This document shows positions 16,116 through 60,670 of a stretch of DNA of 64,000 nucleotides, piece by piece (the first letter of the stretch is position 1; each line of letters starts with the position of its first letter). Source of the stretch: Cohnella sp. AR92 (GTDB taxonomy: Bacteria > Bacillota > Bacilli > Paenibacillales > Paenibacillaceae); the NCBI RefSeq assembly GCF_003990975.1, contig NZ_RZJR01000007.1, positions 125,079 to 189,078 on the forward strand, written 5' to 3'. Made by a program: the position numbers and the translations under genes. The notes beneath the pieces were generated by a model that was not told the origin of the DNA, searched no databases, and saw nothing but the letters and a program-made list of their open reading frames with translations.

Positions 16116-16326
16116 TGCGGCGGGAATTAGTCTCATGTGAGACTAATTCGGACGCGCGGCCACTCTTGCGGCGGGAATTAGTCTCATGTGAGACTAATTC
16201 AGCAGCGCGGCCACTCTTGCGGCGGGAATTAGTCTCATGTGAGACTAATTCAGCAGCGCAGCCCCTTTTGCGGCGGGAATTAGTCTCATGTGAGACTAAT
16301 TCAGCAGCGCGGCCACTCTTGCGCCA
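16116..16326. repeat. Hairpin array A1: four 51-bp units with 26-nt inverted repeat
   Basis: Four units start their palindromes at 16124, 16175, 16226 and 16277, exactly 51 bp apart. Each contains GAATTAGTCTCA, a TG spacer, then TGAGACTAATTC, a perfect 12-bp inverted repeat, followed by a GC-rich linker with GCGGCCACTCTTGCGGCGG. The linkers are nearly identical between units, so this is a tandem repeat, not a CRISPR. It lies between the 3' ends of sodA and the DUF2164 gene. Confidence 0.9.
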
Positions 16327-17010
16327 AGTAAATACTACCCAACTGACCGGCCGAACAGACGCTCAGGAGTGCCATATGAGTACTGGTTACTCAAATTACC
16401 GGCCGACTGCCACACGGGAGCGCCAAATGAGTACTGGTTACTCATATTACCGGCCGACTGCCGCACGGGAGCGCCATATGAGTACTAGTTACTCAAATCA
16501 CCAGCCGACTGCCGCCCGGGAGCGACAAATGAGTACTGGTTACTCAAATCATCAGCCGACTGCCGCCCGGGAGCGACAAATGAGTACTAGTTACTCAAAT
16601 CACCAGCCGACTGCCGCCCGGGAGCGCCAAACGAGTACTGGTTACTCATATCACCGGCCGAACAGACGCTCAGGAGTGCCATATGAGTACTGGTTACTCA
16701 AATCATCAGCAGAAAGACACTCGGGAGCGCCATATGAGTACTGGTTACTCAAATCATCAGTAGAAAGACGCTCGGGAGCGACAAATGAGTACTGGTTACT
16801 CATATCACCGGCCGAACAGACGCACGGGGGTGCTAAATGAGTATTGGTTACTCAAATTACCGGCCGACTGCCGCCCGGGAGCGACAAATGAGTACTGGTT
16901 ACTCATATCACCGGCCGAACAGACGCACGGGGGTGCTAAATGAGTACTGGTTACTCATATCACCGGCCGACTGCCGCCCGGGAGCGACAAATGAGTACTG
17001 GTTACTCAAA
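16325..17010. repeat. Hairpin array A2: thirteen 51/52-bp units plus one degenerate unit
   Basis: Units begin (ATGAG or ACGAG) at 16376, 16427, 16478, 16529, 16580, 16631, 16683, 16734, 16785, 16837, 16888, 16940 and 16991. Most carry TGAGTA-CTGGT-TACTCA, a 6-bp inverted repeat, and a linker with CCGGCCGACTGCCGCCCGGG or variants. A decayed unit at 16325 bridges to array A1. The 52-bp steps come from linker variants one base longer (CCGAACAGACGC or similar). No coding function is credible. Confidence 0.9.
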
Positions 17011-17042
17011 TATGTTCGGCGACCTACAGCTGGAGCGCTCCC

Positions 17043-17297
17043 TTACCGCCGCCGAATCGGAACCTCCAGGGAGTACAGCTCCTCTTCGAGCGAGGCGACT
17101 TTCTGGGTAAGCACGTGCCGCGCGTCCGAGAGCGCCTGATTGTACAGATGCGGCCCAAGCTCGCGAATCATGTGGTCCAGCAGCTGCTCCGCTCCCAGAT
17201 TGCCCAGCGTCTGGCCCAGTTCTTCCTCGAAATAGGCTTGTACGCCGCGAACCAGCTCTTCTCTGCGTTCCTTGGCTATTCGTACCGGTATCGTCAT
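17043..17297 (-). CDS. DUF2164 family protein
   Basis: The 84-residue product matches the DUF2164 pattern: IAKERREELVRGVQAYFEEELGQ followed by LGNLGAEQLLDHMIRELGPHLYNQAL, then a coiled tail. The ATG at 17297 was chosen over an upstream start at 17366 because it gives the family-typical N terminus (MTIPVRI) and has a G-rich stretch 9 nt upstream. It lies 17 bp downstream of mutY, probably in one operon. The family has no established function. The hairpin array A2 begins 33 bp after its stop. Confidence 0.8.
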   Translation of the reverse strand: MTIPVRIAKERREELVRGVQAYFEEELGQTLGNLGAEQLLDHMIRELGPHLYNQALSDARHVLTQKVASLEEELYSLEVPIRRR

Positions 17298-17314
17298 GCT
17301 ATCGTACCCCCCAA

Positions 17315-18559
17315 TTATTTGGAAGCGAAATGTTCGCTCAGTATGCTTCGGAACAGATTCGGCCAAGCCAGCTTCTCGAATTGCTCGAGATCGATCCAGC
17401 GATAGCCGTCTGGCAGTTCCTTCGCGCTTGTGCCTGCCTCGGCTGCTACAATCGCTTCCGCTCTTATGCCTTCCTCTGCTCCTACGCCCGCTTCCGCTCC
17501 TGCCGCCGCGCCTGCTCCCGCTTCATTAGCAGCCGCGCTCTCTTGTACGACTTGGTCCATATCGTCTCGAACCGAGCCGTCGAACGAGACCCGATCCGCT
17601 CCCCAGATTCGAACGAACCAATGCAGATGGGAGAATACATGCTCGGCCGAGCCGAGATATTCGGTCGTCCGGACATCCATTCCTTCCAGGGACAGCGTCG
17701 TCTTCAGCCATTCGGGAGCCGCGTCTTGGGACGACCACGCCTCGAAGGGGGCTTCGATGTGCGGAAGCTCCCACAGCTTGGCGAGCAGGCCTTGCTCGGG
17801 TCTCTGCCTCGCGAGCACCCGGCCCTCCGAATCCTCGATCAAGACCGCCAAGCGATGCTGAGGCTTCGGCTTCTTGGCCTTCGTCTTGATCGGCAGCTCT
17901 TCCTGCCGTCCCGCTAGCCGGGCCGCGCAGTGCTCCATGACGGGACAAGTCAGGCAGTGGGGAGAACGCGGCGTGCACACGAGCGCGCCTAGCTCCATCA
18001 ATGCCTGGTTGAAGTCTCCGGCCGCCCCTTCGGGAATCAGCTCCCGGGCAAGCCCTTCGATCCCGACCCGCGTCGCAGGCTTCGCGATATCGTCCTCCAG
18101 ACAGAAATAACGCGACAGCACGCGCATGACGTTGCCGTCGACGGCCGGCTCCGGAAGGTTAAACGCGATGCTTAAGATCGCTCCCGACGTATAAGGGCCG
18201 ACCCCTTTGAGGCCGCTGACGACCGTTTTGTCCGCCGGAATCATGCCGCCGTAATTGTCCGCGATCTCCCTGGCGGCAGCTTGCAGGTTGCGCGCCCGGG
18301 AGTAATAGCCGAGACCTTCCCACAGCTTCAGAACGTCCTCTTCCGGCGCCTCCGCCAAATCGCGTACGGTCGGAAACCTCTCGACAAAGCGATTGAAGTA
18401 AGGGATGACCGTATCCACCCTTGTTTGCTGAAGCATAATCTCCGATATCCAGATATAATATGGATTCTTCGTTCTGCGCCAAGGCAGATCTCGATTCCCT
18501 CTTCGATACCAAGCCACCAGCTCCTCGCTGAACACCTTGGCGGCTTCCGTCTCGTACAT
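17315..18559 (-). CDS. mutY: A/G-specific adenine glycosylase with low-complexity insert
   Basis: MutY removes adenine mispaired with 8-oxoguanine. The 414-residue product has the catalytic glutamate in ISEIMLQQTRV, the helix-hairpin-helix ending GLKGVGPYTSGA, the catalytic aspartate in VDGNVMRVL, the iron-sulfur cysteines CTPRSPHCLTCPVMEHC, and a C-terminal NUDIX-like 8-oxoG recognition domain. Within that domain, at about residues 338-381, lies an Ala/Gly/Glu-rich stretch made of imperfect EAG/AEAG repeats that normal MutY lacks. The rest is intact, so the enzyme is probably functional. Confidence 0.95.
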   Translation of the reverse strand: MYETEAAKVFSEELVAWYRRGNRDLPWRRTKNPYYIWISEIMLQQTRVDTVIPYFNRFVERFPTVRDLAEAPEEDVLKLWEGLGYYSRARNLQAAAREIADNYGGMIPADKTVVSGLKGVGPYTSGAILSIAFNLPEPAVDGNVMRVLSRYFCLEDDIAKPATRVGIEGLARELIPEGAAGDFNQALMELGALVCTPRSPHCLTCPVMEHCAARLAGRQEELPIKTKAKKPKPQHRLAVLIEDSEGRVLARQRPEQGLLAKLWELPHIEAPFEAWSSQDAAPEWLKTTLSLEGMDVRTTEYLGSAEHVFSHLHWFVRIWGADRVSFDGSVRDDMDQVVQESAAANEAGAGAAAGAEAGVGAEEGIRAEAIVAAEAGTSAKELPDGYRWIDLEQFEKLAWPNLFRSILSEHFASK

Positions 18560-18637
18560 CCGCTCCCCAACCTTCTGCAGCTTCCATCAGCCGCTGTATT
18601 CGTTTCTTCTCCTCGAATCCTCGATTCCTTTTCCCGC

Positions 18638-19501
18638 TTAGACCAATACCTCGCTTGAACCCGGCATTCCGGCCCCCATCTTCCGGTACTGGCTCGGCGT
18701 CATTCCCGTATGCTTCTTGAACATCCGCGAGAAGTAATAGATCTTCATCCCGATCCGGCCGGCGACATCCGATACGTTGCATTCCGGCTGAAGCAGCATG
18801 CTCCGGGCCATCTCCATCCTCCTTAGGTTGACGTACTGGATCGGCGAGCAGCCCATCATGCTCTTGAAGAATACGATGAAATAGTTCGGATGGAGGAAAA
18901 TAAGCTTGGAGAGCTCGTCCACGGTTATGTTATCGGCCAAGTGCTCGTCTATGTAACGAATGACTGCGTTGATCTTCTCCATGTCCTGGGAAGGAATCCC
19001 TTCCGATATCACGGTTAGAGGCTGAATGCCGTCCAGATACAAGCTGATGAGCTCCAGAATGGCGGCTTTGCATCGCATTCTCGACGTCAGGCTGTCCTCC
19101 GCCGCTCCGCGGATGACCTTGTCCATCAAGGAAGCCGCCTCGCCCTGCATGGCTGGAATCCCGATCGGCAAGCGCAGGCTGTTGTACCACTCCCGGTCTC
19201 CGAAGCTGGTCTTGAAGTGCACCCACTTGAGCTTGAGAGAACTTCCGGGGTTCGCTTCGATAGAATGGGAGGTGCCCGTGAGAATCAGCGCCAGCATTCC
19301 CGGAACCAGCGTCTCGCTATGCTGCTCCGTCTCCAGCTTCCCGCTTCCTTCCATTACATATAGGAAGCGATTGCAATCCATCGCCTTCCACTTACCGTTC
19401 GACACCGCAGATTCTTCCACGCCGGATTCCGCCGCGGCCACCGTCTCGATCTGCATATGTTCGAGGTTGTTCATCATTATGGTAAAATAGCTAGTAGTCA
19501 T
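18638..19501 (-). CDS. AraC family transcriptional regulator with N-terminal cupin-like domain
   Basis: The 287-residue protein has an N-terminal ligand-binding region with the cupin-like strand pattern FLYVMEGSGKLETEQHSETLVPGMLALI, and a C-terminal pair of HTH motifs (ITVDELSKLIFLHPNYFIVFFKS and VSDVAGRIGMKIYYFSRMFKKHTGMTPSQYR split over residues 195-275). GAGGAG lies 5 nt before the ATG. It diverges from the lipoprotein cytochrome c gene with 84 bp between starts and lies upstream of mutY. AraC proteins of this layout usually sense sugars; the ligand here is unknown. Confidence 0.88.
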   Translation of the reverse strand: MTTSYFTIMMNNLEHMQIETVAAAESGVEESAVSNGKWKAMDCNRFLYVMEGSGKLETEQHSETLVPGMLALILTGTSHSIEANPGSSLKLKWVHFKTSFGDREWYNSLRLPIGIPAMQGEAASLMDKVIRGAAEDSLTSRMRCKAAILELISLYLDGIQPLTVISEGIPSQDMEKINAVIRYIDEHLADNITVDELSKLIFLHPNYFIVFFKSMMGCSPIQYVNLRRMEMARSMLLQPECNVSDVAGRIGMKIYYFSRMFKKHTGMTPSQYRKMGAGMPGSSEVLV

Positions 19502-19585
19502 GTCCGCTCCTCATGCTGCGATAAATCCCTCACGTGTGTTGAACGTGTCGTCATCTTATTATAATCGAGCGAAGGTGAAGTTGAA

Positions 19586-19978
19586 ATGGTAAGAGTTCCA
19601 TCCTCCGGAGAGCGTCAATTCCGGAAGAAAACGCTTTTCGCGGCGGCTTCTCTGGTCCTTGCCGCGTCGATTCTGTCCGCTTGCGGCGGAGGCGGAGGGG
19701 ATAACCCGGCTGCTCCCCCCGCTTCGAGCAGCAAGCCGTTATCCGGACCGGAAGAGACCGTGAAGCTGTATCGCAACAACTGCATTTCTTGTCATGGCAC
19801 CGAGCTTCAGGGCATGATGGGCGATAAGTCCAATCTCCAGCAAGTCGGAGCGCGCCTGACCAAGGATGAGATCAAGGCCCAGATCGAGAACGGCGGAAGC
19901 CTCATGAAGCCGTTCAAGGATAAGCTGAGCGCGGAGGAGATTGAAGCTCTGTCGTCATGGCTCGCGGAGCATAAGTAA
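19586..19978 (+). CDS. cccB: Membrane-anchored lipoprotein cytochrome c (c551-like)
   Basis: The 130-residue product has a lipoprotein signal with lipobox LSAC (about residue 33), a Gly/Pro/Ser linker and a class I cytochrome c domain with the heme motif CISCHG (about residue 66) and a C-terminal methionine ligand in GSLMKPF. This is the layout of the small electron carrier CccB of bacilli, which passes electrons to terminal oxidases outside the membrane. GAAGGTGAAG precedes the start. It diverges from the AraC gene. Assignment to cccB rather than another c551 paralogue is by architecture. Confidence 0.85.
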   Translation: MVRVPSSGERQFRKKTLFAAASLVLAASILSACGGGGGDNPAAPPASSSKPLSGPEETVKLYRNNCISCHGTELQGMMGDKSNLQQVGARLTKDEIKAQIENGGSLMKPFKDKLSAEEIEALSSWLAEHK

Positions 19979-20007
19979 TGACGCGCATGGCAAGATACGC
20001 CGCATAG

Positions 20008-20044
20008 CAAGAGCCCGGAAGCCATGTGCGGCCCCGGGCTCTTG
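20008..20044. terminator. Bidirectional hairpin between the cytochrome gene and acpS
   Basis: CAAGAGCCCGG (20008-20018) pairs with CCGGGCTCTTG (20034-20044), an 11-bp stem between convergent genes. The T-runs are short, so the terminator role is inferred from position. Confidence 0.7.
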
Positions 20045-20052
20045 CTTGCTCC

Positions 20053-20445
20053 CTATTCTCGTTCGAAGACCGCCGTCGCGGCGGCCATGCTTCTCTCATG
20101 AGTGATGGCGACATGAAGGCGATGCCGCTCTTCCTTCAGCCCTAGCCGTTCCCAGGCTTCGGCGGATAATCGGCAGCAGGGCCGTCCCGAAGGATCGGGC
20201 AGCACCTCCATGTCCGCAAATCCGACGAGACGCCCGATTCCGCACCCGAGCGCCTTCACGATCGCTTCCTTCGCCGCATAGCGTCCCGCGACGAACTCCA
20301 CCGCCCGGCGGCCGGACAGCTCCCGGCATCGCGAACGCTCGCTCTCCGTCAGCACCCTCTCCAAGAACCGAGAGCCCGCGGAACCGGCGAGCAGCTTGTC
20401 CAGCCGCTCCAGCTCCACCATATCGATCCCGATTCCGACGATCAT
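20053..20445 (-). CDS. acpS: Holo-[acyl-carrier-protein] synthase
   Basis: AcpS transfers 4'-phosphopantetheine from CoA to acyl carrier protein, essential for fatty acid synthesis. The 130-residue product shows the magnesium-binding start GIGIDMVELERL and the second motif FVAGRYAAKEAIVKALG, both diagnostic of the bacterial AcpS group. The ATG lies 6 bp beyond the nadE stop, so the two are tightly spaced and probably co-transcribed, with only a weak ribosome site within the end of nadE. Length is normal for the family. Confidence 0.95.
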   Translation of the reverse strand: MIVGIGIDMVELERLDKLLAGSAGSRFLERVLTESERSRCRELSGRRAVEFVAGRYAAKEAIVKALGCGIGRLVGFADMEVLPDPSGRPCCRLSAEAWERLGLKEERHRLHVAITHERSMAAATAVFERE

Positions 20446-20451
20446 CGCCGC

Positions 20452-21261
20452 TTAGATTCCCGGGATCGGGGAGCGCTTATGCTCCGTGCGCAGATAATGG
20501 CGTTCGAGAATCTCGCGGGCGGAAGCCTCGATCTCCTTGCCTTCCAGGTAATCGCTGTTCGCTTCATAAGAAACCCCGAGCTCGTTCTCGTCCGTCTGGC
20601 CTTCCCAGAGCCCGGCCGTCGGCGCCTTGCCGATAACTTCCTCGGGAACTCCAAGTCTCGCGGCTACGGCGCGAACCTGGCGCTTGTTCAGGGAGCTTAG
20701 CGGCGTAATGTCGACCGCTCCGTCGCCCCACTTCGTATAGAAGCCGGTGAGCGCCTCGGAAGCATGGTCCGTGCCCACGACAAGAAGGTTCATATCGAAG
20801 GCCAGCGCATATTGAATGACCATCCGGGTACGGGCTTTGACGTTGCCCTTCCCGCCGCGGCTGATATGGCGCGGCGTGCCGAGAGCCTTGAATCCGTATT
20901 CGGTCTCCAGCACGATCTCGTTGACCGCTTCCTCGATGTTCGTCTCCACCTTGTGGGTCAGGTTGAACGCTTCGGCGACCGCATAACTATGGTCGATATC
21001 CTCTTGTTCCCCGTATGGCTGGAACACCCCGAGGGTTATGTATTCTTTGCCGGTCTCTTGAGAGAGCTCGTCCGTCGCTTGCTTGCAGAGGCCGGTTGCC
21101 ACCGCGCTGTCCACGCCGCCGCTGATCGCGATCAGAAGGCCCGTCGTCTTCGAGCTCTTCACGTATTCCTTCAGAAAATCGACCCGTCTTCTGATCTCTT
21201 GATCGACGTCGATCGTCGGCTTCACGCCCAGCTTCGCAATAATCTCCTGTTGAAGGCTCAT
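20452..21261 (-). CDS. nadE: Ammonia-dependent NAD+ synthetase
   Basis: NadE makes NAD+ from nicotinate adenine dinucleotide with ATP and ammonia. The 269-residue product has the ATP-pyrophosphatase loop LIAISGGVDSAVATGL (about residue 43) and the C-terminal substrate loop GKAPTAGLWEGQTDENELG. The length matches the short NH3-dependent form without an amidase domain. GGAG lies 8 nt upstream of the ATG. It is followed by acpS after 6 bp. Confidence 0.96.
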   Translation of the reverse strand: MSLQQEIIAKLGVKPTIDVDQEIRRRVDFLKEYVKSSKTTGLLIAISGGVDSAVATGLCKQATDELSQETGKEYITLGVFQPYGEQEDIDHSYAVAEAFNLTHKVETNIEEAVNEIVLETEYGFKALGTPRHISRGGKGNVKARTRMVIQYALAFDMNLLVVGTDHASEALTGFYTKWGDGAVDITPLSSLNKRQVRAVAARLGVPEEVIGKAPTAGLWEGQTDENELGVSYEANSDYLEGKEIEASAREILERHYLRTEHKRSPIPGI

Positions 21262-21350
21262 CCTCGTCTCTCCAATCCGCTCTAATTCTAGTTAAGCACG
21301 CGGGGCAGAGCCCCGGTTGTTAATCTTATCCAATCCATATGGCTAAAAAA

Positions 21351-21384
21351 ACTCCCGCAAGCTCACTTGCGAACCGGCGGGAGT
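21351..21384 (-). terminator. Terminator downstream of the bacilliredoxin gene
   Basis: Minus-strand stem ACTCCCGC/GCGGGAGT followed by seven T (plus-strand A-run at 21345-21351). Confidence 0.85.
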
Positions 21385-21399
21385 TGCCTTCCGTATCGA

Positions 21400-21834
21400 T
21401 TAACGGCAGAAGCGATCGAAGGCCGACGTCAGATCCGCCGCGATGTCTTCCGCGCTGCGGTTCTCGATCTGGTGGCGTTCGATGAAGTGAACCAGTTCTC
21501 CGTCCTTCATCAGCGCGATGGAAGGAGAAGACGGAGGGTAAGGCGCGAAATACTCGCGAGCCTTCGCCGTAGCTTCCTTGTCCTGTCCGGCGAATACCGT
21601 ATACAGGTGATCCGGGAGCACGTCGTGCTGCAGCGCTTCCGCTACGCCCGGACGGGCTTGCCCGGCCGCGCAGCCGCACACGGAGTTGACGACGACGAGC
21701 GTCGTTCCCTTCGCGTTGGGAAGAGCCTCTTCCACTTCCTCCGGCGTACGGAGCTCCTTGATTCCAACCCGCGTCAGATCGTCGCGCATCGGTTGAATCA
21801 TGTCGAACATGTATCTCTCAAATGACATAGACAT
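21400..21834 (-). CDS. BrxA/BrxB family bacilliredoxin
   Basis: Bacilliredoxins remove bacillithiol from S-bacillithiolated proteins in low-GC Gram-positives. The 144-residue product contains the CGC active-site motif in VNSVCGCAAGQARP (about residue 52) and the family C-terminal pattern HFIERHQIENRSAEDI. These are the features of the YphP/YqiW family. GAGG lies 8 nt before the ATG at 21834. Whether it is BrxA or BrxB cannot be told without alignment. It implies that the organism uses bacillithiol. Confidence 0.92.
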   Translation of the reverse strand: MSMSFERYMFDMIQPMRDDLTRVGIKELRTPEEVEEALPNAKGTTLVVVNSVCGCAAGQARPGVAEALQHDVLPDHLYTVFAGQDKEATAKAREYFAPYPPSSPSIALMKDGELVHFIERHQIENRSAEDIAADLTSAFDRFCR

Positions 21835-21937
21835 TCTATCATCCTCGCTTCCCGCTTGCGATTTGGCGGACCAATCCGCTTACTTTTTATTATAAGCTCT
21901 GACCGGATAACCGTCAAAAAAATGAACCCTGAACGCA

Positions 21938-22363: not shown

Positions 22364-22383
22364 GTCGTTCTCCCGCTCCAAGC

Positions 22384-29569: not shown

Positions 29570-30736
29570 ATGACGAGAACAACGACGGGAGATCAGGCCC
29601 TGATCAAACGCATCAATACAGCCATCGTTCTGGAGGCTATTCTCCATGGGGAGCCCCTGTCCAGAGCCAAGATCTCGGAGCTTACCGGCTTGAATAAGGC
29701 CACCGTCTCTTCCCTTGTACAGGACCTGATCGATAACCGGTTGGTACGGGAGATAGGAACGGGCGTCTCCAGCGGGGGACGCAAGCCCGTGCTTCTGGAG
29801 TTCATCGCCACGGCCGGCTACGCGGTCGGCATCGATCTTGGCGTCAACTACTTGCACGGGGTTCTCACGGATCTGCGCGGAGCGATTATCGCCGAACGGA
29901 CGGCTCCGCTTGTCGACTCTGATCCGGATGACGTATTCAACGTACTGCGCCCTTTCATTCAGAACTTGATATCGGAAGCGCCCTCCAGCCCCTTCGGAGT
30001 CGTCGGCATCGGCGTCGGCGTCCCGGGACTGGTCGACTCCTCCGGATCGGTGCTGTACGCTCCGAACATGAACTGGAGAGAGGTTCCGCTCAAAGATGCG
30101 CTCAGCCGGGCATTCGGCATTCCCGTGCTAATCGATAATGAAGCCAATGTAGGCGCGCTCGGGGAGATGATGCACGGCAGCGGACGCGGCATCTCCAATA
30201 TGGTTTACGTCAGCGTCGGGATCGGCATCGGCACCGGCCTCATTCTTCAGCGAACGCTGTACAAGGGAGCTTCCGGGTTCTCGGGAGAGCTCGGCCATCT
30301 CTCGGTGGAAGCCCACGGCAAGCCCTGCCGCTGCGGCAATCGCGGCTGCTGGGAGCTGTACGCGTCCGAGCAGGCGCTGCTGGAGCAAGCAAGCGCGCTC
30401 GGTCGCGACGCGAACCTGGACGCTCTGCTCGCCGCGGCCGAGAGCGGGGACGAGACCGTTCGCCAGCTGCTCGCCGGCATCGGCGATTATCTGGGCGTAG
30501 GCATCGCCAATATCGTCAACATTTTCAATCCGGATGCCGTCATTATCGGCAATCGGATGAGCCGAGCGCAGCCTTGGATCGAGGAGACGGTCAGGCGAAC
30601 GCTGGAGGAACGGGCGCTAGGCTTCCACCTTCGCGGGGTCCAGCTGCTCTTCGCCGAGCTTGGCGGCCGTTCCGCCGTCATGGGAGCCGCCGAGCTGGCC
30701 ATCGCCGCTTTCTTCGATCGGCTGAAAGCGGGATGA
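29570..30736 (+). CDS. xylR: Xylose repressor, ROK family
   Basis: XylR represses xyl genes and releases DNA on binding xylose. The 388-residue protein has an N-terminal winged helix (LSRAKISELTGLNKATVSSLVQDLI) and a ROK sugar-binding domain with YAVGIDLGVNYLHGVL, DNEANVGALGE and the zinc motif CRCGNRGCWE. ATG at 29570 is preferred to 29561, since AAGGAG at 29553-29558 is too close to the latter. It diverges from xylAB across xylO. A hairpin with a T-run follows at 30751-30780. Confidence 0.95.
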   Translation: MTRTTTGDQALIKRINTAIVLEAILHGEPLSRAKISELTGLNKATVSSLVQDLIDNRLVREIGTGVSSGGRKPVLLEFIATAGYAVGIDLGVNYLHGVLTDLRGAIIAERTAPLVDSDPDDVFNVLRPFIQNLISEAPSSPFGVVGIGVGVPGLVDSSGSVLYAPNMNWREVPLKDALSRAFGIPVLIDNEANVGALGEMMHGSGRGISNMVYVSVGIGIGTGLILQRTLYKGASGFSGELGHLSVEAHGKPCRCGNRGCWELYASEQALLEQASALGRDANLDALLAAAESGDETVRQLLAGIGDYLGVGIANIVNIFNPDAVIIGNRMSRAQPWIEETVRRTLEERALGFHLRGVQLLFAELGGRSAVMGAAELAIAAFFDRLKAG

Positions 30737-37509: not shown

Positions 37510-38460
37510 TTAAGGACGCAGCATCAGAGCGGCGCCGACCGCCCCCGCCTGCGCGCCCAGCTTCGGCGCCGCGAACTTTACCCCGCGCCTCATCGGCTCG
37601 ATCGCATGGGCTTCCAGGTACTCCCGCATCGGCTCGAGCAGAGGCTCGCCGATATGGGAGGCGCCGCCGCCCAGAATGATCACCTCGGGATTCGCGATGT
37701 GGATCGCGCTGACCATGCCCGCGCCGAGGGCGCGTCCGGCGCGGCGGAGCACCTCCAGCGCCAATCCGTCGCCTTGCTTCGCCGCCTCGCTGACGTGCCG
37801 CGAGTTGATCTTCTCCGCGTCTCCTCCGGCGAGCTCGATCAGCTTGCCGCCCCGTGCCGGATCCGCCGCTGCCGCCTCGCGGGCCGACCGTCCGATCGCC
37901 GTGCCGGAAGCGTACAGCTCCAGGCAACCGACGTTGCCGCACAGGCACTTCGCCCCCTGCCAGTCGATCGTGATGTGTCCGAGCTCCGCCGCGCTCGCAT
38001 TGCGTCCGCGCATGAGCTTGCCGTCGCAGATAACGCCGCTGCCGATTCCCGTCGACACGGTGATGAACACGCAGTTGCGCGAGCCGATCCCCGCTCCCGC
38101 CTTCCATTCGCCGACGGCCGCCGCGTTCGCGTCGTTGTCGACGGTCACCTTGACGCCGAGCAGGCGTTCCAGCTCGCTTCCCAGCGGCACGTTCGTCCAG
38201 CCGAGATTCGAGGCGAACTCCACCGTTCCGGTATCCGGATCCAGCGTGCCCGCCGTCGCTACTCCGGCTCCCGCCAGCGAATAGTTGCCGCCCACCAGAA
38301 CGTTCACCATATCGGCCATGGTCGCGATGATCGCTTCATGTCCTCTCGACGCTTCGGTCGGCCGCTCCTCGGATGCCAGCACCCGTCCCTCTTCGTCTAC
38401 GATAACCGTCAATATTTTTGTCCCGCCGAGATCGATCCCCGCGTACACCTGCTTCAGCAT
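37510..38460 (-). CDS. ROK family sugar kinase (glucokinase-like)
   Basis: The 316-residue product has the ATP loop GIDLGGTKILTVIV, the catalytic aspartate in TVDNDANAAAVGEW, FITVSTGIGSGVI and the zinc motif CLCGNVGCLELYASG (CxCGxxGCxE). All catalytic elements are intact and no HTH is present, so it is an enzyme, probably glucokinase or N-acyl-hexosamine kinase. GGAGGGGG lies upstream of the ATG. It follows the ROK regulator by 31 bp on the same strand, so the pair is one operon. Exact sugar specificity cannot be read from sequence. Confidence 0.9.
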   Translation of the reverse strand: MLKQVYAGIDLGGTKILTVIVDEEGRVLASEERPTEASRGHEAIIATMADMVNVLVGGNYSLAGAGVATAGTLDPDTGTVEFASNLGWTNVPLGSELERLLGVKVTVDNDANAAAVGEWKAGAGIGSRNCVFITVSTGIGSGVICDGKLMRGRNASAAELGHITIDWQGAKCLCGNVGCLELYASGTAIGRSAREAAAADPARGGKLIELAGGDAEKINSRHVSEAAKQGDGLALEVLRRAGRALGAGMVSAIHIANPEVIILGGGASHIGEPLLEPMREYLEAHAIEPMRRGVKFAAPKLGAQAGAVGAALMLRP

Positions 38461-50879: not shown

Positions 50880-51009
50880 CATCTTATAACCAGTCGCTGC
50901 TAGGCCTCGCTGTTCCATTGCTCCGAGATTTGACCGTGGATGTTGCTCTACATATCCAGCTTCAGCTCGAGATGCCGTACAGCACTATTGTCCTCTTCAG
51001 CCTGTAGAG

Positions 51010-51145
51010 AAACTGATAGTCTCGGATGAGACTATCTCGGCGGGTTGAACGGTGTTTGTTCCGGAGATAGTCTCGGATGAGACTATCTCGGCGGGTTGAA
51101 CGGTGTTTGTTCCGGAGATAGTCTCGGATGAGACTATCTCGGCCG
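51010..51145. repeat. Hairpin array B: three 51-bp units
   Basis: Palindromes start at 51015, 51066 and 51117, exactly 51 bp apart. Each has AGTCTC-GGAT-GAGACT, extended in the latter two to GAGATAGTCTC/GAGACTATCTC, an 11-bp stem. The linker GGCGGGTTGAACGGTGTTTG is identical in the first two units. The direct repeats TGCCGTACAGCACTAT (50973-50988) and TGCCGTACGACACTAT (51174-51189) flank the array. Confidence 0.88.
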
Positions 51146-51313
51146 CCACAGTGCCAATTCCCTCGCCAGATGTTGCCGTACGACACTATCTCAACCGCAG
51201 CCAGTTAAGCTCCCAACTCTTATGCGAATTAAGGTCAACGACACGGGACATACTTCCCAAGGAAGCAATTGGTTATGGCTGCGATGCAGATGCTTACGGA
51301 AAGGAGCACATTC

Positions 51314-52232: not shown

Positions 52233-52246
52233 GCGCAACCGCTCCT

Positions 52247-53163: not shown

Positions 53164-54363
53164 ATGAGTCCTCTGTCCGTCACGCCTGCTCCTACTGCTA
53201 AGAAAAGAGTCTTCGATCGGGTTCTGGATAAGGGAATCGTCTCCAAAGGGGAGCTCATGGACGCGTTATCCCTCACGAGCACCAGCATGACCCGGCTGTT
53301 GGAGGAGATGATCTCGGAGAACGTGCTTCAGCTTAGCGGGCACGGCGACTCCACCGGAGGCCGGAGGCCGCTCCTGTATCGGTTGAATCCCGAATACGGT
53401 TACGCCGTCGGACTGGAGATCTCTCGGATCTTCTCCTCCATCGCCTTATTCGATATGAATATGAACAAGCTTGTTTCCGAACGCTGGAGAATGGACGACC
53501 GAATGACCCCTGAAGCGTTGATCGATCGGGTCGAAGCCTTCCTCGATCGCGCTCGTAAGGAACGGGCCATCCCACCGGAGAGGATCATCGGCATCGGAAT
53601 CGGCGCCGTCGGCCCGCTACTTCCGGGCGAGGGCCTGATTCAAAAGCCGCTGTACTTCCCGTCGCCGGGTTGGACGAACGTGCCGATCACTCGTCTTCTT
53701 GAAGAACGGATCGGCATTCCGTGCACGCTGGAGAACGGCGCGAACATGGCTCTGCTCGGCGAACATTGGGCGATGCGGGACGAGAACATCCGGCATATGC
53801 TCTATGTCAGCGTCGGCTACGGCCTCCGCTCGGCGGTCATGTCCGGCGGCCAGATCGTCTACGGCGCCACCGATATGGAAGGCTCCATCGGCCAGATGAT
53901 CATACAGGTCGACGGCCCAAGGCTTCAAGGCAGAGGCAATCCCGGGGCGTTGGAAGCCTTCGCTTCCATTCAAGCCCTGGAGACGCAGTCCCGGGCTCTA
54001 TTGAAGAGCGGAAGTTCCTCTATTCTGAGCGAGCTCTCCAACCCGGAAGACCTCGATTTCGACGACCTGCTCGAAGCAATGGCGAAGGGGGATCCCCTCG
54101 TTCAAGAGCTGTTCGACCGCTCCGCCTCTTACCTGGGAGTCGGCCTTGCGAATCTGGTCAACGCTCTGCACCCGGAGAAGGTCATTCTTGGCGGCGCCTT
54201 ATTGTCGGCTTATGAAGGTGCCTTCTCCATTGCCGCCGATGCCGCCTTGCGCAACGTGTACCACTCGGATGAATACCGGCCGGCATTCAGCAAGGGAGCC
54301 TTGCAGGAGGACGCCGTCGCCTTCGGCGCCGCGCTCCTGATCTACCGCCGGATGATCGTCTAA
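53164..54363 (+). CDS. Degenerate ROK family transcriptional regulator
   Basis: The 399-residue protein has an N-terminal winged helix (SKGELMDALSLTSTSMTRLLEEMI) and a ROK-fold body (AVGLEISRIFSSIALFD, ERIIGIGIGAVGPLLPG). The zinc motif CxCGxxGCxE is replaced by GRGNPGALE, the phosphate loop DxGxT is lost, and the catalytic DxN is ENGAN. It cannot be a kinase, and zinc-dependent sugar binding is lost. AAAGGAGGG precedes the ATG by 7 nt. It stands alone and may sense something other than a free hexose. Confidence 0.85.
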   Translation: MSPLSVTPAPTAKKRVFDRVLDKGIVSKGELMDALSLTSTSMTRLLEEMISENVLQLSGHGDSTGGRRPLLYRLNPEYGYAVGLEISRIFSSIALFDMNMNKLVSERWRMDDRMTPEALIDRVEAFLDRARKERAIPPERIIGIGIGAVGPLLPGEGLIQKPLYFPSPGWTNVPITRLLEERIGIPCTLENGANMALLGEHWAMRDENIRHMLYVSVGYGLRSAVMSGGQIVYGATDMEGSIGQMIIQVDGPRLQGRGNPGALEAFASIQALETQSRALLKSGSSSILSELSNPEDLDFDDLLEAMAKGDPLVQELFDRSASYLGVGLANLVNALHPEKVILGGALLSAYEGAFSIAADAALRNVYHSDEYRPAFSKGALQEDAVAFGAALLIYRRMIV

Positions 54364-54375
54364 AGATTCAAACAA

Positions 54376-54420: not shown

Positions 54421-54430
54421 GGGCTTCCGC

Positions 54431-54898: not shown

Positions 54899-55032
54899 GT
54901 TTGAGAGCCCTCCCGACAAAAAGTTCCAGACTCTTGATTCTATATGATTTTATACGATTTCGCCGCGGATTACCAAGCGAATGATAGGGAATAAGGTCGT
55001 AAGCGTCGATCTAGCCTGGGCAAGCCCCTCCC

Positions 55033-55359
55033 TTACGATGTGACCACATAAACGAGAAGCGCGATTAACGGAAGCAGCCAGAGAAGCGGAATCTGGTTCA
55101 CCCACACGGCCGCCTTGAATTTCTTAAGATGGTAAAGTGCCCAGCTTACCCCGCAAGCAACAAGAAGAGCGATCGGATAAAGCCAGTTGACGATATATAG
55201 CGACATAAACCAGAAATAAGAAGCCGATTCCGTATCGGGATTGTCGAAGCCCATCGTCGCCATGACGGCGACGAACAGCCAGGGAATTCCCATCAAGACA
55301 TAAACGATCTGCGAGATCAATAGATAGGCATTCGCTTTGCCGTTCTTAACTCTGCTCAT
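55033..55359 (-). CDS. Small integral membrane protein, 108 aa
   Basis: The product has about three membrane helices (ISQIVYVLMGIPWLFVAVMA, FWFMSLYIVNWLYPIALLVAC and IPLLWLLPLIALLVYVV) with a short charged N terminus (MSRVKNGKAN). No catalytic motif is seen and I do not recognise a family. GGAGGAG lies 10 nt before the ATG. The gene is flanked by lspA and a GNAT gene on the same strand, with gaps of 134 and 29 bp. A role as a small membrane accessory is only conjecture. Confidence 0.7.
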   Translation of the reverse strand: MSRVKNGKANAYLLISQIVYVLMGIPWLFVAVMATMGFDNPDTESASYFWFMSLYIVNWLYPIALLVACGVSWALYHLKKFKAAVWVNQIPLLWLLPLIALLVYVVTS

Positions 55360-55388
55360 AAACGTCGGACTCCTCCGCAGCTTCAGCT

Positions 55389-55955
55389 CTAGCCTTTGTC
55401 GGTATACCCCCGATAGGCACGAGAGTGAAACTTCGATATGTGTTTAAACAGCTTTTTGCCGTCCGCGGGAAGAGGCTTCGCCGGATCGAACGACAAGATC
55501 ATGGCCCGGTAAGGCTCCGGAACCCAGGTGTACGCATGAACGTACTCCGTCAGCTCGAAGCCGCAGCTTAACCAGAAGCGGATGCGGGCAAGATTATCCG
55601 GCGTCTCCTCGGCCTCTACCTCGATCAGCAGTCCGTCCAGCTTCCTCCGCCGCGCTTCTTCTTCGATCTCTTCCATCAGCTTACCGCCGAGTCCGCGCCT
55701 TCTCTCGGAAGCCCGGACGGCGATGTAGTCGATCAGCAGCACGTTCGCTTCGGGCAGCACGCCGGCGAATGCGAAAGCGGAGACGCCGCCGCTCTCTTCG
55801 GCTAACGCGAACAGCAATCCTTGTCCTTCGCCGAACATCCGCTCGATAACCCGGTCCGGCTTCCTTCCCTTCGGGTCGGGGAAAGCCTCATGGTAGATCT
55901 CCAAAGCCGCAGGCCACGCTGCGCGGTCCGGATGATCCAATGCTAGAAATCTCAT
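55389..55955 (-). CDS. GNAT family N-acetyltransferase
   Basis: The 188-residue GNAT domain has the acetyl-CoA loop RRRGLGGKLMEEIEEEA (about 97-113), preceded by VLLIDYIAVR, and a C-terminal extension (FDPAKPLPADGKKLFKHISKFHSRAYRGY). The conserved RFWLSCGFELTEYVHAYTWVPEPYRAM is the motif B region. ATG at 55955 has GGGGAGG 11 nt upstream and is preferred over 56009. It precedes the membrane-protein gene by 29 bp and may be in the same unit. The substrate is unknown. Confidence 0.85.
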   Translation of the reverse strand: MRFLALDHPDRAAWPAALEIYHEAFPDPKGRKPDRVIERMFGEGQGLLFALAEESGGVSAFAFAGVLPEANVLLIDYIAVRASERRRGLGGKLMEEIEEEARRRKLDGLLIEVEAEETPDNLARIRFWLSCGFELTEYVHAYTWVPEPYRAMILSFDPAKPLPADGKKLFKHISKFHSRAYRGYTDKG

Positions 55956-56162
55956 GCTGTCGTTCGCCTCCCCTGATGCGTGCATCTTCCCATTGGAGCC
56001 TTTTCCCACTTAACGGAACCGATGTCCCGCCCCTTGCAACATTCATTCGCACATTCGCGCATTCGCACAATCGCTTTATTCGCGTTCTCGCTTCCTTCGC
56101 AGGAAGGCCGCCGTCCAACCTGCATGATCGGAAAGCGGCCCTGCCATCTGCGCCTATCGGTC

Positions 56163-57236
56163 TTACTTGCTGTGCATCTTGAATTCCAGGAAAAGCTCGT
56201 TGTAGTGAACGAGCATCTTCTTGCCGAGGTTGTCGTAAACTTCGAGCTTGCTTGTAAGCTCGTCGTTCGGGTAGAAGCGTTCGTCTTCCGAGATCTCGGC
56301 CGGAAGCAGCTTGAGCGCCTCCCGGTTAGGAGTCGAATAGCCGACATACTCCGCGTTCCGCTCCGCGACCTCCGGATCGAGCATGAAGTTGATGAACTGA
56401 TGGGCAGCGTCCAGGTTCTTGGCCGTTTTCGGGATGACCATGTTGTCGAACCACAGGTTGGAGCCTTCCTTCGGCACGACGTAATCGAGCTTGTCGTTCT
56501 CGCTCAGAATCTCCGAAGCGTCGCCCGACCAGACAAGGCCGACCGCCGCTTCCTCGTTCGCGAGCAGCATCTTGATCTCGTCGCCGACAAGCGCCTTCAC
56601 GTTGGGCGTCAGCGTCTTCAGCTTCTTGAGCGCTTCCTGGAGGTGATCCTCGTTCTTGTCGTTGAGCGAATAGCCCAGGCTGTTAAGCCCCATGCCCATC
56701 ACCTCGCGAGCGCTGTCCACGAGAAGGATTTGATTGCGAAGCTCCGGACTCCATAGATCGTTCCAGCTGTCGAACGTCAGGTCTCCCACGAGCTCCGGAT
56801 TATAGACGACGCCTACCGTGCCCCAGAAATAAGGGACGGAATACACGTTGCCCGGATCGAAGCTGAGGTCCATGAATCGCGGATCAATGTTCTTCAGGTT
56901 CGGAACCTTGGAATGATCGATCGGGAGCAGCAGGTTATCTTCCATCATCTTGCTGATCGCATAGTCGGACGGAACCGCGACGTCGAAGGTCGTGCCGCCT
57001 TGCTGGATCTTCGTCATCATGGCTTCGTTGGAATCGAAGGTCTGGTAGATGACCTTGACTCCCGTCTGTTCTTCGAATTCCGCGATCAGGTCGGGGTCGA
57101 TATAGTCTCCCCAGTTATAGACGGTGAGCGTATTCCCGCCGGAATAGCCCTGCTCGGAATTCAGGTACTTGGTCAGGTACATCAAGGCGAAGGCGACGAC
57201 CAGAATCCCGATGCCCAGCCTTACGAGCTGCTTCAT
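56163..57236 (-). CDS. potD: Spermidine/putrescine-binding protein of an ABC transporter
   Basis: The 357-residue extracellular binding protein has LTVYNWGDYIDPDLIAEFEEQTGVKVIYQTF split in the first lobe, the PotD signature, and VPYFWGTVGVVYNPELVG. The N terminus is a hydrophobic helix (LGIGILVVAFALMYLT) without the usual lipobox cysteine, so it is probably tethered by an uncleaved signal. It overlaps potC by 4 bp. The operon order potA-B-C-D on the minus strand is canonical. Confidence 0.94.
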   Translation of the reverse strand: MKQLVRLGIGILVVAFALMYLTKYLNSEQGYSGGNTLTVYNWGDYIDPDLIAEFEEQTGVKVIYQTFDSNEAMMTKIQQGGTTFDVAVPSDYAISKMMEDNLLLPIDHSKVPNLKNIDPRFMDLSFDPGNVYSVPYFWGTVGVVYNPELVGDLTFDSWNDLWSPELRNQILLVDSAREVMGMGLNSLGYSLNDKNEDHLQEALKKLKTLTPNVKALVGDEIKMLLANEEAAVGLVWSGDASEILSENDKLDYVVPKEGSNLWFDNMVIPKTAKNLDAAHQFINFMLDPEVAERNAEYVGYSTPNREALKLLPAEISEDERFYPNDELTSKLEVYDNLGKKMLVHYNELFLEFKMHSK

Positions 57237-58042
57237 AGACGCGCACCCGCTTCCTGAATGCGACCGCTGCGCCGGTTGATGAAGTAGTAGCCCACGACGA
57301 GCAGGATCGTGAACAGGAAGAGCAGCGTGGACAAGGCGTTGATGCTGAGCGCGACTCCTTGGCGGGCGCGGGAGTAGATCTCGACGGACAAGGTCGAGAA
57401 TCCGTTGCCGGTCACGAAGAACGTCACGGCGAAGTCGTCAAGCGAATAGGTCAGCGCCATGAAGAAGCCCGCGAAGACCCCCGACTTGATGTACGGAAGG
57501 ATGACCTTCGTCAGCACGTTCCAGCCGTTCGCTCCGAGGTCCCGGGCCGCGTCCACAAGGGAGGCGTTCATCTCCTGCAGCTTGGGCAGGATCATGATAA
57601 CGACGATCGGAACGCTGAAGGCGATGTGCGAGATCAACACGGAACCGAAGCCAAGCTTCAAACCGATCATCGTAAAAAGAATAAGGAACGACGCGCCGAT
57701 GACCACATCCGGATTCACGATAAGCACGTTGTTGAGGGACAGCAGCGCGTTCTTGGTCCGCTGCTTGCGCACCCGGTGAATCGCGATCGCTCCGATAATG
57801 CCCAGAATCGTCGAGATGAGCGAAGAGAACAACGCGATAACGAACGTGTTCAGCACGATGATCAGAAGCCGGGTATCGGAGAACACCTCTCCGTACCATT
57901 CCAACGTAAAGCCGTCATACCCGTGCATCGTTCCCCCGCTGTTGAAGGAGTAGGCGACCAGATAAAATATCGGAGCATACAGCACGACGAAGACGAGGAT
58001 CAGGTACAGATGCGACCACTTCCAGCCTTGGCTGCTTTTCAT
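57233..58042 (-). CDS. potC: Spermidine/putrescine ABC transporter permease PotC
   Basis: The 269-residue inner-membrane permease has about six helices and the EAA-loop MNASLVDAARDLGANGWNVLTKVILPYIKSG in blocks (about 150-180), the ATPase docking site. The N terminus (HLYLILVFVVLYAPIFYLVAYSFN) and the C-terminal loop with ALSINALSTLL are typical of PotC. It overlaps potB and potD by 4 bp each, so expression is translationally coupled. Together with PotB it forms the channel. Confidence 0.94.
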   Translation of the reverse strand: MKSSQGWKWSHLYLILVFVVLYAPIFYLVAYSFNSGGTMHGYDGFTLEWYGEVFSDTRLLIIVLNTFVIALFSSLISTILGIIGAIAIHRVRKQRTKNALLSLNNVLIVNPDVVIGASFLILFTMIGLKLGFGSVLISHIAFSVPIVVIMILPKLQEMNASLVDAARDLGANGWNVLTKVILPYIKSGVFAGFFMALTYSLDDFAVTFFVTGNGFSTLSVEIYSRARQGVALSINALSTLLFLFTILLVVGYYFINRRSGRIQEAGARL

Positions 58043-58842
58043 CGCGTCCCCCTCCTTTTGCGGCCGGTAATGACCATGATGATCGCCATCACGATGACGA
58101 GGAACACCGCGATGGTTGCGCCCATGCCCCAGTCCTGCGTGACGAGGAAGTGCTGCTCGATCGCCGTGCCCAGCGTGATGACGCGGTTACCCGCGATCAG
58201 ACGGGTGATCATGAAGAGCGACAGAGCCGGAATGAATACCGCTTGGCAGCCGGACTTCACGCCATCGATCGTCAGCGGAATAACGACTCTGCGAATGGTC
58301 GTCCAGGCGGACGCTCCCAGATCGCGCGCCGCGTGAATCAGCGACGGATTAAGCTCTTCCAGCGAGTTGTAGATCGGCAGCAGCATAAACGGGATAAAAA
58401 TATAGACCGATACGAACACGAAGCTGAAGTCGGTGAACAGGATCTGTTGGCGCCCGATTCCGACCGCCTCGAGCAGCTCGTTCGTCAGCCCGTAGGTGCC
58501 GAACAGCCCGATGAAGGCATACGTCTTGAGCAGCAGGTTCACCCAGCTCGGCACGATGATCAGCAGGAGCCAGAGCTGCTTGTGCTTCGTCTTCGTTAAT
58601 AAATAAGCGGTAGGATACGCGATAACGAGCGAGAAGAACGTGATCAGCAGCGCGTACCAGAACGAGCTGATCGTCATCTTCAGATAGACGGAGGTGAAGA
58701 AGTTGGCGTAGTTGCTCAGCGTCCAACCGCCTTCGACATCCTGGAATGAGTAATACACGATCAGCAGGATCGGAGCCGCCACGAACAGGATGATCCAGAG
58801 CAGATAAGGCGCCAGGTAATAGTTGCGCGACCTAGTCCTCAT
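58039..58842 (-). CDS. potB: Spermidine/putrescine ABC transporter permease PotB
   Basis: The 267-residue permease has about six helices, beginning [24 protein letters not shown], and the EAA-loop [31 protein letters not shown] in blocks (about 165-195). It overlaps potA by 11 bp and potC by 4 bp. These overlaps and the fixed order show a tightly coupled operon. Its partner is PotC; PotA binds its EAA helix. No internal promoter or terminator is seen. Confidence 0.94.
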
Positions 58843-59941
58843 CGCCGCTCACCTCGGTGAATTCTTCGATCCGCCGGTCGAACTCTTCTTCCGTCTCGTT
58901 GAACCTCATGATATGTATCGCCTCGGGATCGAAGTCCAGCCCGATCTCTTCGCCGACGGCCGCTTTGCGCGTCGAATGGACCAGCCACCGGCTGCCCGAT
59001 TCGTCGATGCCGACGATCTCGTAGTGAACGCCGCGGAACAGCTGCGAATCGACGCGGATCTTCAGCTTGCCTTTCTCGGGAGACGTGATCTCCAGGTCCT
59101 CCGGGCGAATTACGACCTCGACCGGCTCCCCGTCGTGGAAGCCGCCGTCCACGCAATCGAACGACTTGCCGGCGAATTGCACCAGGTAATCGCGAACCAT
59201 CGTGCCGGGAAGAATGTTGGACTCCCCGATGAAGTCCGCGACGAAACGGTTGATCGGCTCGTCGTAAATATCCGTCGGCGTGCCGCTCTGCTGGATGGTT
59301 CCCTTGTTGAGCACGAAGATCTCGTCCGACATCGCGAGAGCTTCCTCTTGGTCATGCGTGACGAAAATAAACGTAATGCCGAGCCTCCGCTGCAGCTCGC
59401 GAAGCTCCGACTGCATCTCGGTACGCAGCTTCAGGTCAAGCGCCGACAGGGGCTCGTCCAGCAGCAGCACCGCCGGCTCGTTCACGATCGCCCGCGCGAT
59501 GGCCACCCGCTGGCGCTGGCCGCCGGACATCTCGCCTATCTCCCTGCGCTCGTAGCCGGACAAGTTGACGAAGCGCAGCGCTTCCGTCACCTTCTTCTCG
59601 ATCTCGGCTTGCTTCAGCTTCTTGATGCGAAGACCGAACGCCACGTTCTCGAACACGTTCAGATGAGGGAACAACGCGTAATCCTGGAACACCGTGTTCA
59701 CCTGGCGCTTGTTCGCCGGAACGTCGTTGATCCGAACGCCGTTCAGGTAGATATCGCCCTCCGAAGGCGTGAGGAAGCCCGCGATCAGCCTTAGGATCGT
59801 CGTTTTGCCGCAGCCCGAAGGACCGAGGAGAGTGTAGAACTTCCCCGGCTCGAGCTCGAAGCTCACGTCTTTAAGGATCGCGTCGTCGCTGTCATACTTC
59901 ATGGTCACGTTATTAAACTGAATAATGGTCTTGGTCGACAT
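58832..59941 (-). CDS. potA: Spermidine/putrescine ABC transporter ATPase
   Basis: The 369-residue ATPase powers polyamine import. It has Walker [10 protein letters not shown] (about residue 38), the Q-loop [11 protein letters not shown], signature [14 protein letters not shown], Walker [12 protein letters not shown] and the H-loop [10 protein letters not shown], then a C-terminal TOBE-like regulatory domain (about 240-369). GGGAGG lies 6 nt before the ATG. It is the first gene of potABCD. No regulatory gene such as a HTH-cupin is adjacent. Upstream is the 830-bp non-coding region with arrays C and D. Confidence 0.96.
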
Positions 59942-60228
59942 ATCCGTCCTCCCTTGTCAAAAGCTTCCGTATCGCGTTATTCGTCTAGCTTGAATCCACT
60001 TCCGTTCTTCTATACCCCTAACCGTCCGAAACGAAGAAGTCGGTATTAGTTTAAACACGCTAACCCGAGCTTTCAACAGAAATTTGTTAATTTCCCTCGG
60101 TTTTTCGGCGGAAAATGATGATTTGCGGCGAAATGCGGCGTAAGAGTGCGATCAGGGGGGGCTATAGGCGTATAGGAGCTTTGGGCGAATAGTTGGGTCT
60201 ATTGATCACATTGGCCATCCCTCGCGCA

Positions 60229-60490
60229 CCGCACGCTGAACCCTCTCTCTCACCGAGTTATTGCCATTTGTTCAATAACTCCGCACGCTGATCCCTCTCT
60301 CTCACCGAGTTATTGCCATTTGTTCAACAACTCCGCACGCTGACCCCTCTCTCTCATCGAGTTATTGCCATTTGTTCAATAACTCCGCACGCTGATCCCT
60401 CTCTCTCACCGAGTTATTGCCATTTGTTCAATAACTCCGCACGCTGATCCCTCTCTCTCACCGAGTTATTGCCATTTGTTCAATAACTCC
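60229..60490. repeat. Hairpin array C: five 52-bp units
   Basis: Units starting CCGCAC at 60229, 60281, 60333, 60385 and 60437 (and a partial at 60489) are exactly 52 bp apart. Each ends with the inverted repeat GAGTTATTG-CCATTTGTT-CAATAACTC (first at 60255-60281), 9-bp arms and 9-nt loop. Two units have one-base changes in the loop-side arm (CAACAACTC) or linker. It is a tandem repeat with conserved linker CACGCTGATCCCTCTCTCTC. Confidence 0.88.
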
Positions 60491-60515
60491 GCACTCGCGC
60501 AGCTTTACCTGCTTC

Positions 60516-60670
60516 CTCCGGCCAGTCTGTCACGCTCTGTTAGTCGATTTCTTCGACTATCTCGCTTCTCCGGCCCGGCTATCACGCTCCGTTAGTCGAT
60601 TTCTTCGACTATCTCGCTTCCCCGGCCCGGCTATCACGCTCCGTTAGTCGATTTCTTCGACTATCTCGCT
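60516..60670. repeat. Hairpin array D: three 52-bp units
   Basis: TTAGTCGA starts at 60540, 60592 and 60644, exactly 52 bp apart. Each palindrome is TAGTCGA-TTTCT-TCGACTA, 7-bp arms and 5-nt loop. The linker TCTCGCTTCYCCGGCCCGG and a CTATCACGCTCC block are conserved, and a diverged partial linker precedes the first unit. It follows array C after 50 bp of unrelated sequence. Confidence 0.85.

Follow-up and report, generated by a model that had tools for sequence, protein, structure and literature searches.

Five intergenic arrays of tandem repeats (A1, A2, B, C and D) lie in a 64-kb stretch of the Cohnella sp. AR92 genome, hereafter the window (contig C35, positions 125079-189078; the genome is referred to as G000). 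They are a real and strong feature, and belong to a published class of repeats of constant length and variable sequence. Their units are strictly spaced, cores are kept while the linkers drift, arrays are nearly absent from gaps between divergent genes, orthologous gaps show turnover of arrays, and no strand-specific RNA constraint is apparent. With a probability of about 0.4, we propose that the arrays are rows of DNA recognition sites for a putative, genome-specific dimeric factor, and that they would act as insulators between transcription units in the manner of bacterial interspersed mosaic elements (BIMEs). The evidence speaks more for a DNA-binding factor acting in trans than for RNA function, for mobilization by a RAYT, that is, a tyrosine transposase associated with repetitive extragenic palindromes (REPs), or for a purely mutational origin.

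Strict spacing of the repeat units

Tandem arrays were called with Tandem Repeats Finder (TRF). The survey of G000, which comprises 6.02 Mb in 36 contigs, covered the window and 60 stretches, 18 of them chosen for holding arrays (1.26 Mb in total); a smaller survey covered the window and 40 stretches (864 kb). Arrays below a TRF score of 90-150, the threshold varying by analysis, were left out before counting. Genes and terminators were called with simple in-house scripts and are uncurated.

The periods that had been read for the five window arrays are reproduced by TRF (51, 51, 51, 52 and 52 bp), and within A2 the spacing is 51 in 9 of 12 steps and 52 in the other 3. Across the smaller survey, 20 of the 31 tandem arrays scoring at least 150 have a period of 51, 52, 104 or 152, and in the larger one 48 of 61 strong arrays have a period of 51, 52 or a multiple. 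Outside the window, the 40 stretches of the smaller survey contain 15 arrays, which cover 5.9 of 800 kb at an uneven density (nine in 120 kb of contig C35, five in 280 kb of C6, one in 200 kb of C12 and none in 200 kb of C18). Of the 36 other genomes of the genus, 21 contain one or more arrays of period 48-54 (score at least 130) in the stretches fetched. Contig C35 itself starts within an array of 104-bp period (L005, 10-1389); arrays may therefore break assemblies, and counts from draft genomes may be low.

Palindrome-to-palindrome distances, counted over 51 TRF arrays of period 48-54 only, are 50-52 bp in 223 of 230 cases. The same range is recovered when sites are searched without regard to spacing and successive distances of up to 80 bp are taken: 107/109 for type I, 18/18 for type IV, and 23/23 each for types D and II. 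Moreover, each type has its own step, which is 51 in 100 of 109 type I distances, 52 in type IV and nearly always 52 in type D, while the type I core of a relative (G004) has a 5-nt spacer and a period of 50; arrays of 50 bp are also found in G019. Comparing adjacent units of 77 arrays gives 13.7 substitutions per indel event (1775/130). In orthologous intergenic DNA free of arrays this ratio is 2.4 (2245/937), and it is 5.8 (371/64) in the four control pairs above 90% identity, which share genomes. Since TRF prefers indel-poor arrays, this comparison is partly biased, whereas the spacing-blind distances are free of that bias and agree with it. Our results thus support the view that unit length is constrained after the birth of an array, and with it a constraint on spacing, for which an earlier note on this DNA had suggested selection.

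A purely mutational process, in which slippage or repair at palindromes would duplicate about 51 bp per event and the product would be unselected, accounts for a length that is independent of sequence, for arrays of equal length and unrelated sequence at orthologous gaps, and for the arrays without palindrome. It is at odds with diverged arrays that hold their length with few indels, with step values kept by every type across loci, and with stems conserved relative to linkers. Loss of the hairpin nuclease SbcCD was rejected on the SbcD match in 37/37 genus genomes (36 above the cut-off). We therefore regard an origin of this kind as improbable.

A broad range of periods, which would have made the spacing a coincidence, was not seen among the noncoding arrays of Cohnella. 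Among these, six others scatter at 25, 27, 33, 43, 66 and 73 bp (three more lack gene calls); apart from the noncoding array of 43 bp, the arrays of 42 and 63 bp seen in Cohnella all lie inside called genes. Other Paenibacillaceae, scanned up to a period of 75, do show noncoding arrays of 37-45 bp alongside those of 51-52, and the constant length may vary between lineages. Some Paenibacillus have noncoding arrays of 41 bp (L125, 7531-8160; L093, 20530-20763; L099, 4190-4286), and arrays of 38-40 bp with a good palindrome, AGGTTTGC..GCAAACCT, occur at L061 and L062.

The idea that all palindromes sit on one helical face holds only approximately, given that each type has its own value of 50, 51 or 52 bp and that the phase is mostly lost where arrays adjoin. 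Of 20 distances taken across such junctions, 1 is 50-52 and 12 are 42-62, the rest reaching up to 309, with motif centres of different types only roughly comparable. The argument from the helix is in any case weak, because four or six turns would serve equally.

Conserved cores and drifting linkers

A unit consists of a core, palindromic or partly so, and a linker that takes up roughly half of the unit's length. One inverted repeat per window family was confirmed, namely GAATTAGTCTCATGTGAGACTAATTC (26 nt) in A1, TGAGTACTGGTTACTCA (17 nt) in A2, GAGATAGTCTCGGATGAGACTATCTC (26 nt) in B, GAGTTATTGCCATTTGTTCAATAACTC (27 nt) in C and TAGTCGATTTCTTCGACTA (19 nt) in D. Among 300 shuffled units these palindromes were never matched for A1, B and C, twice for D and 48 times for A2; the weak A2 palindrome would carry no conviction without its recurrence in other arrays. 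Palindromes better than shuffles (p<=0.05) are present in 29 of 44 G000 arrays and in 18 of the 32 arrays from other Cohnella. Beyond the window, the recurrence of the period was borne out, and the internal palindrome proved frequent without being universal.

The type I set comprises 18 arrays with 127 units (17 arrays have 51-bp units; L010 is kept as one array). In its core, TAGTCTC-N4-GAGACTA, each of the 14 columns shows one base at 92-100% when weighted by array, a conservation that is partly by construction, as sites were sought with at most two mismatches in 14. The number of sites per array tracks the TRF copy number. Linkers of different type I arrays have a mean identity of 38% in register and 30% when rotated, reaching 65-83% in 8 of 136 array pairs. 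In line with this, same-type arrays share descent, and length and core persist while linkers drift. The earlier remark that the arrays are hard to explain by duplication alone is accordingly weakened by this common descent and strengthened by length and core outlasting the linkers. Where the palindrome is significant (25 arrays), stems have a diversity of 0.040, loops of 0.116 and linkers of 0.164, a roughly fourfold difference between stem and linker, and the linker exceeds the stem in 23 of these arrays.

The type I unit is polar, CGARW-TAGTCTC-N4-GAGACTA-AYTCC, and its spacer begins with A in 14 of 17 arrays when oriented by the outer C. Complementarity is avoided just outside the feet (1/18, with 6.4 expected) and at the spacer centre (0/18, with 4.9 expected). 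The 18 arrays are related by descent, so that both polarity and avoidance may be inherited. Sites come almost exclusively in rows, 127 of 131 having a neighbour within 60 bp; of the four isolated ones, one is exact and lies beside an array of another type, and three are two-mismatch matches, of which 2-6 are expected by chance.

Gene context

Gaps of at least 100 bp were classified with our own gene caller, leaving out arrays at stretch ends, and expectations were computed by gap length. The pooled gaps that hold arrays (n=50) are convergent in 24 cases, tandem in 26 and divergent in none, whereas about 5.2 convergent and 13.1 divergent would be expected. By subset, the counts are 4 convergent, 8 tandem and 0 divergent (expected 1.0 convergent and 2.6 divergent) in the contiguous G000 sample, for which contigs were picked after matches on them had been seen; 9, 12 and 0 (expected 2.3 convergent and 4.7 divergent) in the G000 stretches selected for arrays; and 11, 6 and 0 (expected 1.9 convergent and 5.8 divergent) at 36 genus mutY loci once the gap between mutY and the superoxide dismutase (SOD) gene is removed.

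In tandem gaps, the array is preceded by a terminator, placed after the stop codon, in 18 of 28 cases, against 162 of 547 array-free 3' ends. Arrays in these gaps are about equally distant from the next start codon (median 142 bp) and the last stop codon (median 132 bp). A role as a stop-codon barrier was rejected, as an open reading frame (ORF; 16085-16840) passes through A1 and most of A2.

Distribution and turnover of arrays

Among 198 genomes of the order, the exact type I core has 94 sites in G000, 10 in G004, one each in two others and none in the remaining 194. Within the 37 genomes of the genus, type I is confined to G000 and G004. Both mutY and SOD were mapped in 34 loci, and in 11 of these the convergent mutY-SOD gap, of which the window provides one example, carries an array of 50-52 bp, with units that differ. 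As a special hotspot it was rejected, the share being close to that of other convergent gaps of the genus loci (11/35). Among named genomes, Cohnella zeiphila and C. nanjingensis have the mutY loci closest to that of the window. In the mutY-SOD gap of L133 (G008), ATGTG-TTTTT-CACAT units are accompanied by short repeats of about 15-24 bp seen by eye, which recall a 20-21-nt class described in PMC8161180.

Orthologous gaps gain, lose or replace arrays. At 102.5 kb of C35, G000 has 14 type I units where its closest relatives have gaps of 150 bp (G033) and 194 bp (G035) with no TRF array; at 129.9 kb, G000 lacks an array and G033 has one of 51 bp; at 88.1 kb, types I and E in G000 face an unrelated 52-bp array in G035. 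By eye, G033 retains one unit-like stretch at the first of these gaps.

Arrays of different types often adjoin: I with E at eight loci of the fetched part of the genome (lone E units counted), IV with D at three, II or III with F or G at four, I with II in the window (A1/A2), and I with D at one. Counting TRF arrays alone, at least two arrays are found at 12 of 36 loci. The seven arrays of one type in G019 (50 of 51 sites listed) lie 0.26-1.40 Mb from dnaA, where the maximum possible is 2.39; they are too few to be used for an origin-terminus pattern.

These patterns would also be expected of non-autonomous, selfish repeats of the REP kind, spread by a palindrome-recognising enzyme, without a host role and surviving only away from promoters. 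Arrays of one type at many loci with residual linker homology, their gain, loss or exchange at orthologous gaps, and the species-specific palindromes all agree with such an origin, as does the report that REPs too lie between unidirectional and convergent genes (PMC3733652). Against it, the Y1 transposase family (Y1_Tnp, PF01797) has 0 matches in G000, being present in 16 of the 60 genomes searched, and a REP/RAYT origin was rejected on this basis; true single units are almost absent, unlike in REPs; and the strict length outlasts the spread by far. Spread by viruses or plasmids was likewise rejected, as one query to each of three collections (plasmids, phages and viral contigs) gave no match. 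All in all, we hold mobile repeats to be a serious alternative, though an unlikely one.

Relation to known repeat systems

The closest precedent is the 52-nt class of noncoding repeats, of strict length and variable sequence, carried by roughly 30% of the Bacillus species examined (Subirana and Messeguer 2021; PMC8161180). According to that paper, these repeats are species-specific, particularly abundant in Paenibacillus, and often contain a characteristic short sequence together with its reverse; their function is left open, with nucleoid proteins or small RNAs suggested. The Cohnella arrays share the noncoding unit of 51-53 bp (50 bp in some G004 and G019 arrays), the several species-specific families of one length and different sequence per genome, the sequence with its reverse (as a significant palindrome in the 29 of 44 arrays mentioned above) and, as far as that text shows, the partial conservation between strains. 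The minimum of four repeats in the published search is reached by A1, A2 and C, B and D being shorter. The words 'Cohnella', 'convergent', 'intergenic' and 'palindrom-' do not appear in the accessible text, and among the literature matches listed we found no description for Cohnella and no analysis of gene context or palindromes. New with respect to that work are the gene context, the contrast between core and linker, the indel test, the type-specific lengths and the paired arrays. In this regard, repeats of constant length and variable sequence are a published puzzle, and our results, by pointing to a trans-acting DNA-binding factor, make the question testable.

REPs and BIMEs (PMC3733652) are similar in their species-specific, clustered palindromes and in their location in tandem and convergent gene gaps. 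The Cohnella arrays differ in their strictly constant spacing and in the near absence of the singles and dimers that accompany REP clusters; they lack the RAYT and also the GTAG/CGTC foot tag, type I feet being CGARW and AYTCC (feet of other types were only inspected). The published CGTC REP families are likewise without a dedicated transposase (PMC3733652).

As in CRISPR, a palindromic element alternates with a linker of constant length. In the Cohnella arrays, however, the linker is repeated within each array inspected instead of forming unique spacers, and there are many arrays per genome. The half-site TTAG...CTC / GAG...CTAA of CIRCE, the operator of HrcA, resembles the array half-site. 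CIRCE has a 9-bp spacer and occurs as a single site at heat-shock promoters, whereas the Cohnella sites have a 4-bp spacer and form rows away from divergent promoters.

A putative DNA-binding factor and its weighing

The findings presented above allow us to outline how the arrays could work. A putative sequence-specific and probably dimeric DNA-binding factor, particular to each genome, would read the array cores and assemble along the array at a fixed step of 50-52 bp given by its own geometry, so that linker length would be retained while linker sequence drifts. Whether placed or tolerated there, arrays would be confined to the space between transcription units, in very many cases those of convergent genes, where the nucleoprotein row may insulate supercoiling, read-through or nucleoid contacts as BIMEs do. 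A reader acting in trans seems needed for a core kept in 18 scattered arrays amid drifting surroundings and private to G000 and one relative, and rows with practically no singles at a fixed step suggest cooperative assembly; for the insulator role, it is location that speaks. If true, this last role would mean that Firmicutes can keep transcription units apart in a BIME-like way with no REP transposase.

In an extended version, each Cohnella genome would have one or a few fast-evolving factors with private palindromes that polymerise at 50-52 bp into insulators between convergent units; adjoining arrays of two types would recruit two of them, and factor and sites would co-evolve fast, as likened to meiotic-hotspot or partition systems. 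Such co-evolution would explain constant length with variable sequence, yet we consider the extended version rather unlikely.

Several observations weigh against a factor that insulates transcription units. The cooperative dimeric protein of the earlier note remains the best reading, but no candidate was found in a search made without gene-content comparison between whole genomes. In about one third of the arrays no palindrome reaches significance, and the units are polar, which is more than a simple symmetric dimer needs. The intergenic placement could reflect tolerance alone. A looser tally at the level of arrays (n=55), which also counts the mutY-SOD gaps and four stretches of G004, all of them selected, gives 29 convergent, 19 tandem and 3 divergent locations and 4 stretch ends. 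Convergent ends that bear arrays have a terminator in 21 of 68 cases, neither rarer nor commoner than in 53 of 152 array-free ends; on this lack of difference, arrays as substitutes for intrinsic terminators were rejected. Finally, stems differ on both sides between species, as in a period-51 pair (GGARTTAGTCTC-N4 in G000, GGARTTAGTTCG-N4 in G014) and a period-50 pair (TAGTCTC-TGTGG in G004, TAGCGGCA-TGTGG in G019), with no change in feet, in period, or in the length or sequence of the spacer, a pattern that a paired hairpin would also account for; and transcription of such arrays is reported for B. coagulans (PMC8625621). G004 and G019 (L168-L170 and L157) have period-50 arrays with a common foot, TAG..CTA, and a TGTGG-like spacer next to unlike stems, the best hint of a constraint at the level of the hairpin.

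These last points, together with A-rich loops that recur with different stems, would be expected if the arrays acted as RNA, that is, as transcribed strings of hairpins that are processed, or as small RNAs or 3' untranslated elements. In tandem gaps, however, arrays show no strand preference: type I is sense in 5 and antisense in 6, and types IV and D together in 7 and 4, the strand of two arrays, L177 and L183, hinging on tie-breaking. Mispairs in type I are G-T in 38 and A-C in 45 cases, about equal and with no excess of G-T. The two degenerate foot pairs show independent variation (Watson-Crick share 0.46, with 0.44 expected, and 0.73, with 0.66 expected), which is what a protein dyad, and not a paired stem, would show. 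Known RNA families were rejected as well, as Rfam gave no match at the arrays of the window and three loci at gathering thresholds. The absence of strand bias, of G-T excess and of foot covariation, added to the location of tandem-gap arrays mostly past a terminator, suggests action on DNA; the RNA processing proposed earlier is thereby disfavoured in G000, and we judge an RNA function quite improbable. At L176 (14290-14865), glycine riboswitch matches come as two back-to-back pairs on opposite strands.

Arrays of the window and their neighbourhood

The arrays of the window and the genes that flank them are listed in Table 1. No terminator was found by the scan between the small ORF and A2, and one sits between the stop of the ROK-family gene and array D. 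Type E units centre on GCYGTACRGC, and lone ones stand on both sides of array B.

Table 1. Repeat arrays of the 64-kb window and adjacent features (window positions).
Feature	Position	Strand	Description
Array A1	16113..16323	no strand	TRF period 51, 4.1 copies; type I, 4 units; palindrome GAATTAGTCTC-ATGT-GAGACTAATTC; polar 'canonical' strand is minus
Array A2	16346..17011	no strand	TRF period 51, 13 copies; type II, about 13 units; palindrome GAGTACTGGTTACTC
Array B	51015..51143	no strand	TRF period 51, 2.5 copies; three type I palindromes and two linkers
Array C	60229..60494	no strand	TRF period 52, 5.1 copies; type IV, 5 units; palindrome GAGTTATTG...CAATAACTC
Array D	60511..60675	no strand	TRF period 52, 3.2 copies; type D, 3 units; palindrome TAGTCGA...TCGACTA; adjoins array C
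Single type E unit	50969..50990	no strand	left of array B
Single type E unit	51169..51192	no strand	right of array B
Fe/Mn superoxide dismutase gene	15413..16024	+	Pfam PF02777/PF00081; 3' end towards A1/A2
Intrinsic terminator of SOD	16036..16074 (ends approximate)	+	terminator scan; between stop codon and A1
mutY-like gene	17315..18559	-	Pfam HhH-GPD and NUDIX_4; convergent with SOD, A1/A2 in the gap
Small called ORF	17043..17297	-	in the SOD-mutY gap, on the mutY side
ROK-family gene	60772..61674	-	Pfam PF00480; end just right of C/D

The window contains four ROK-family genes in its 64 kb, the others being at 29570-30736, 37510-38460 and 53164-54363.

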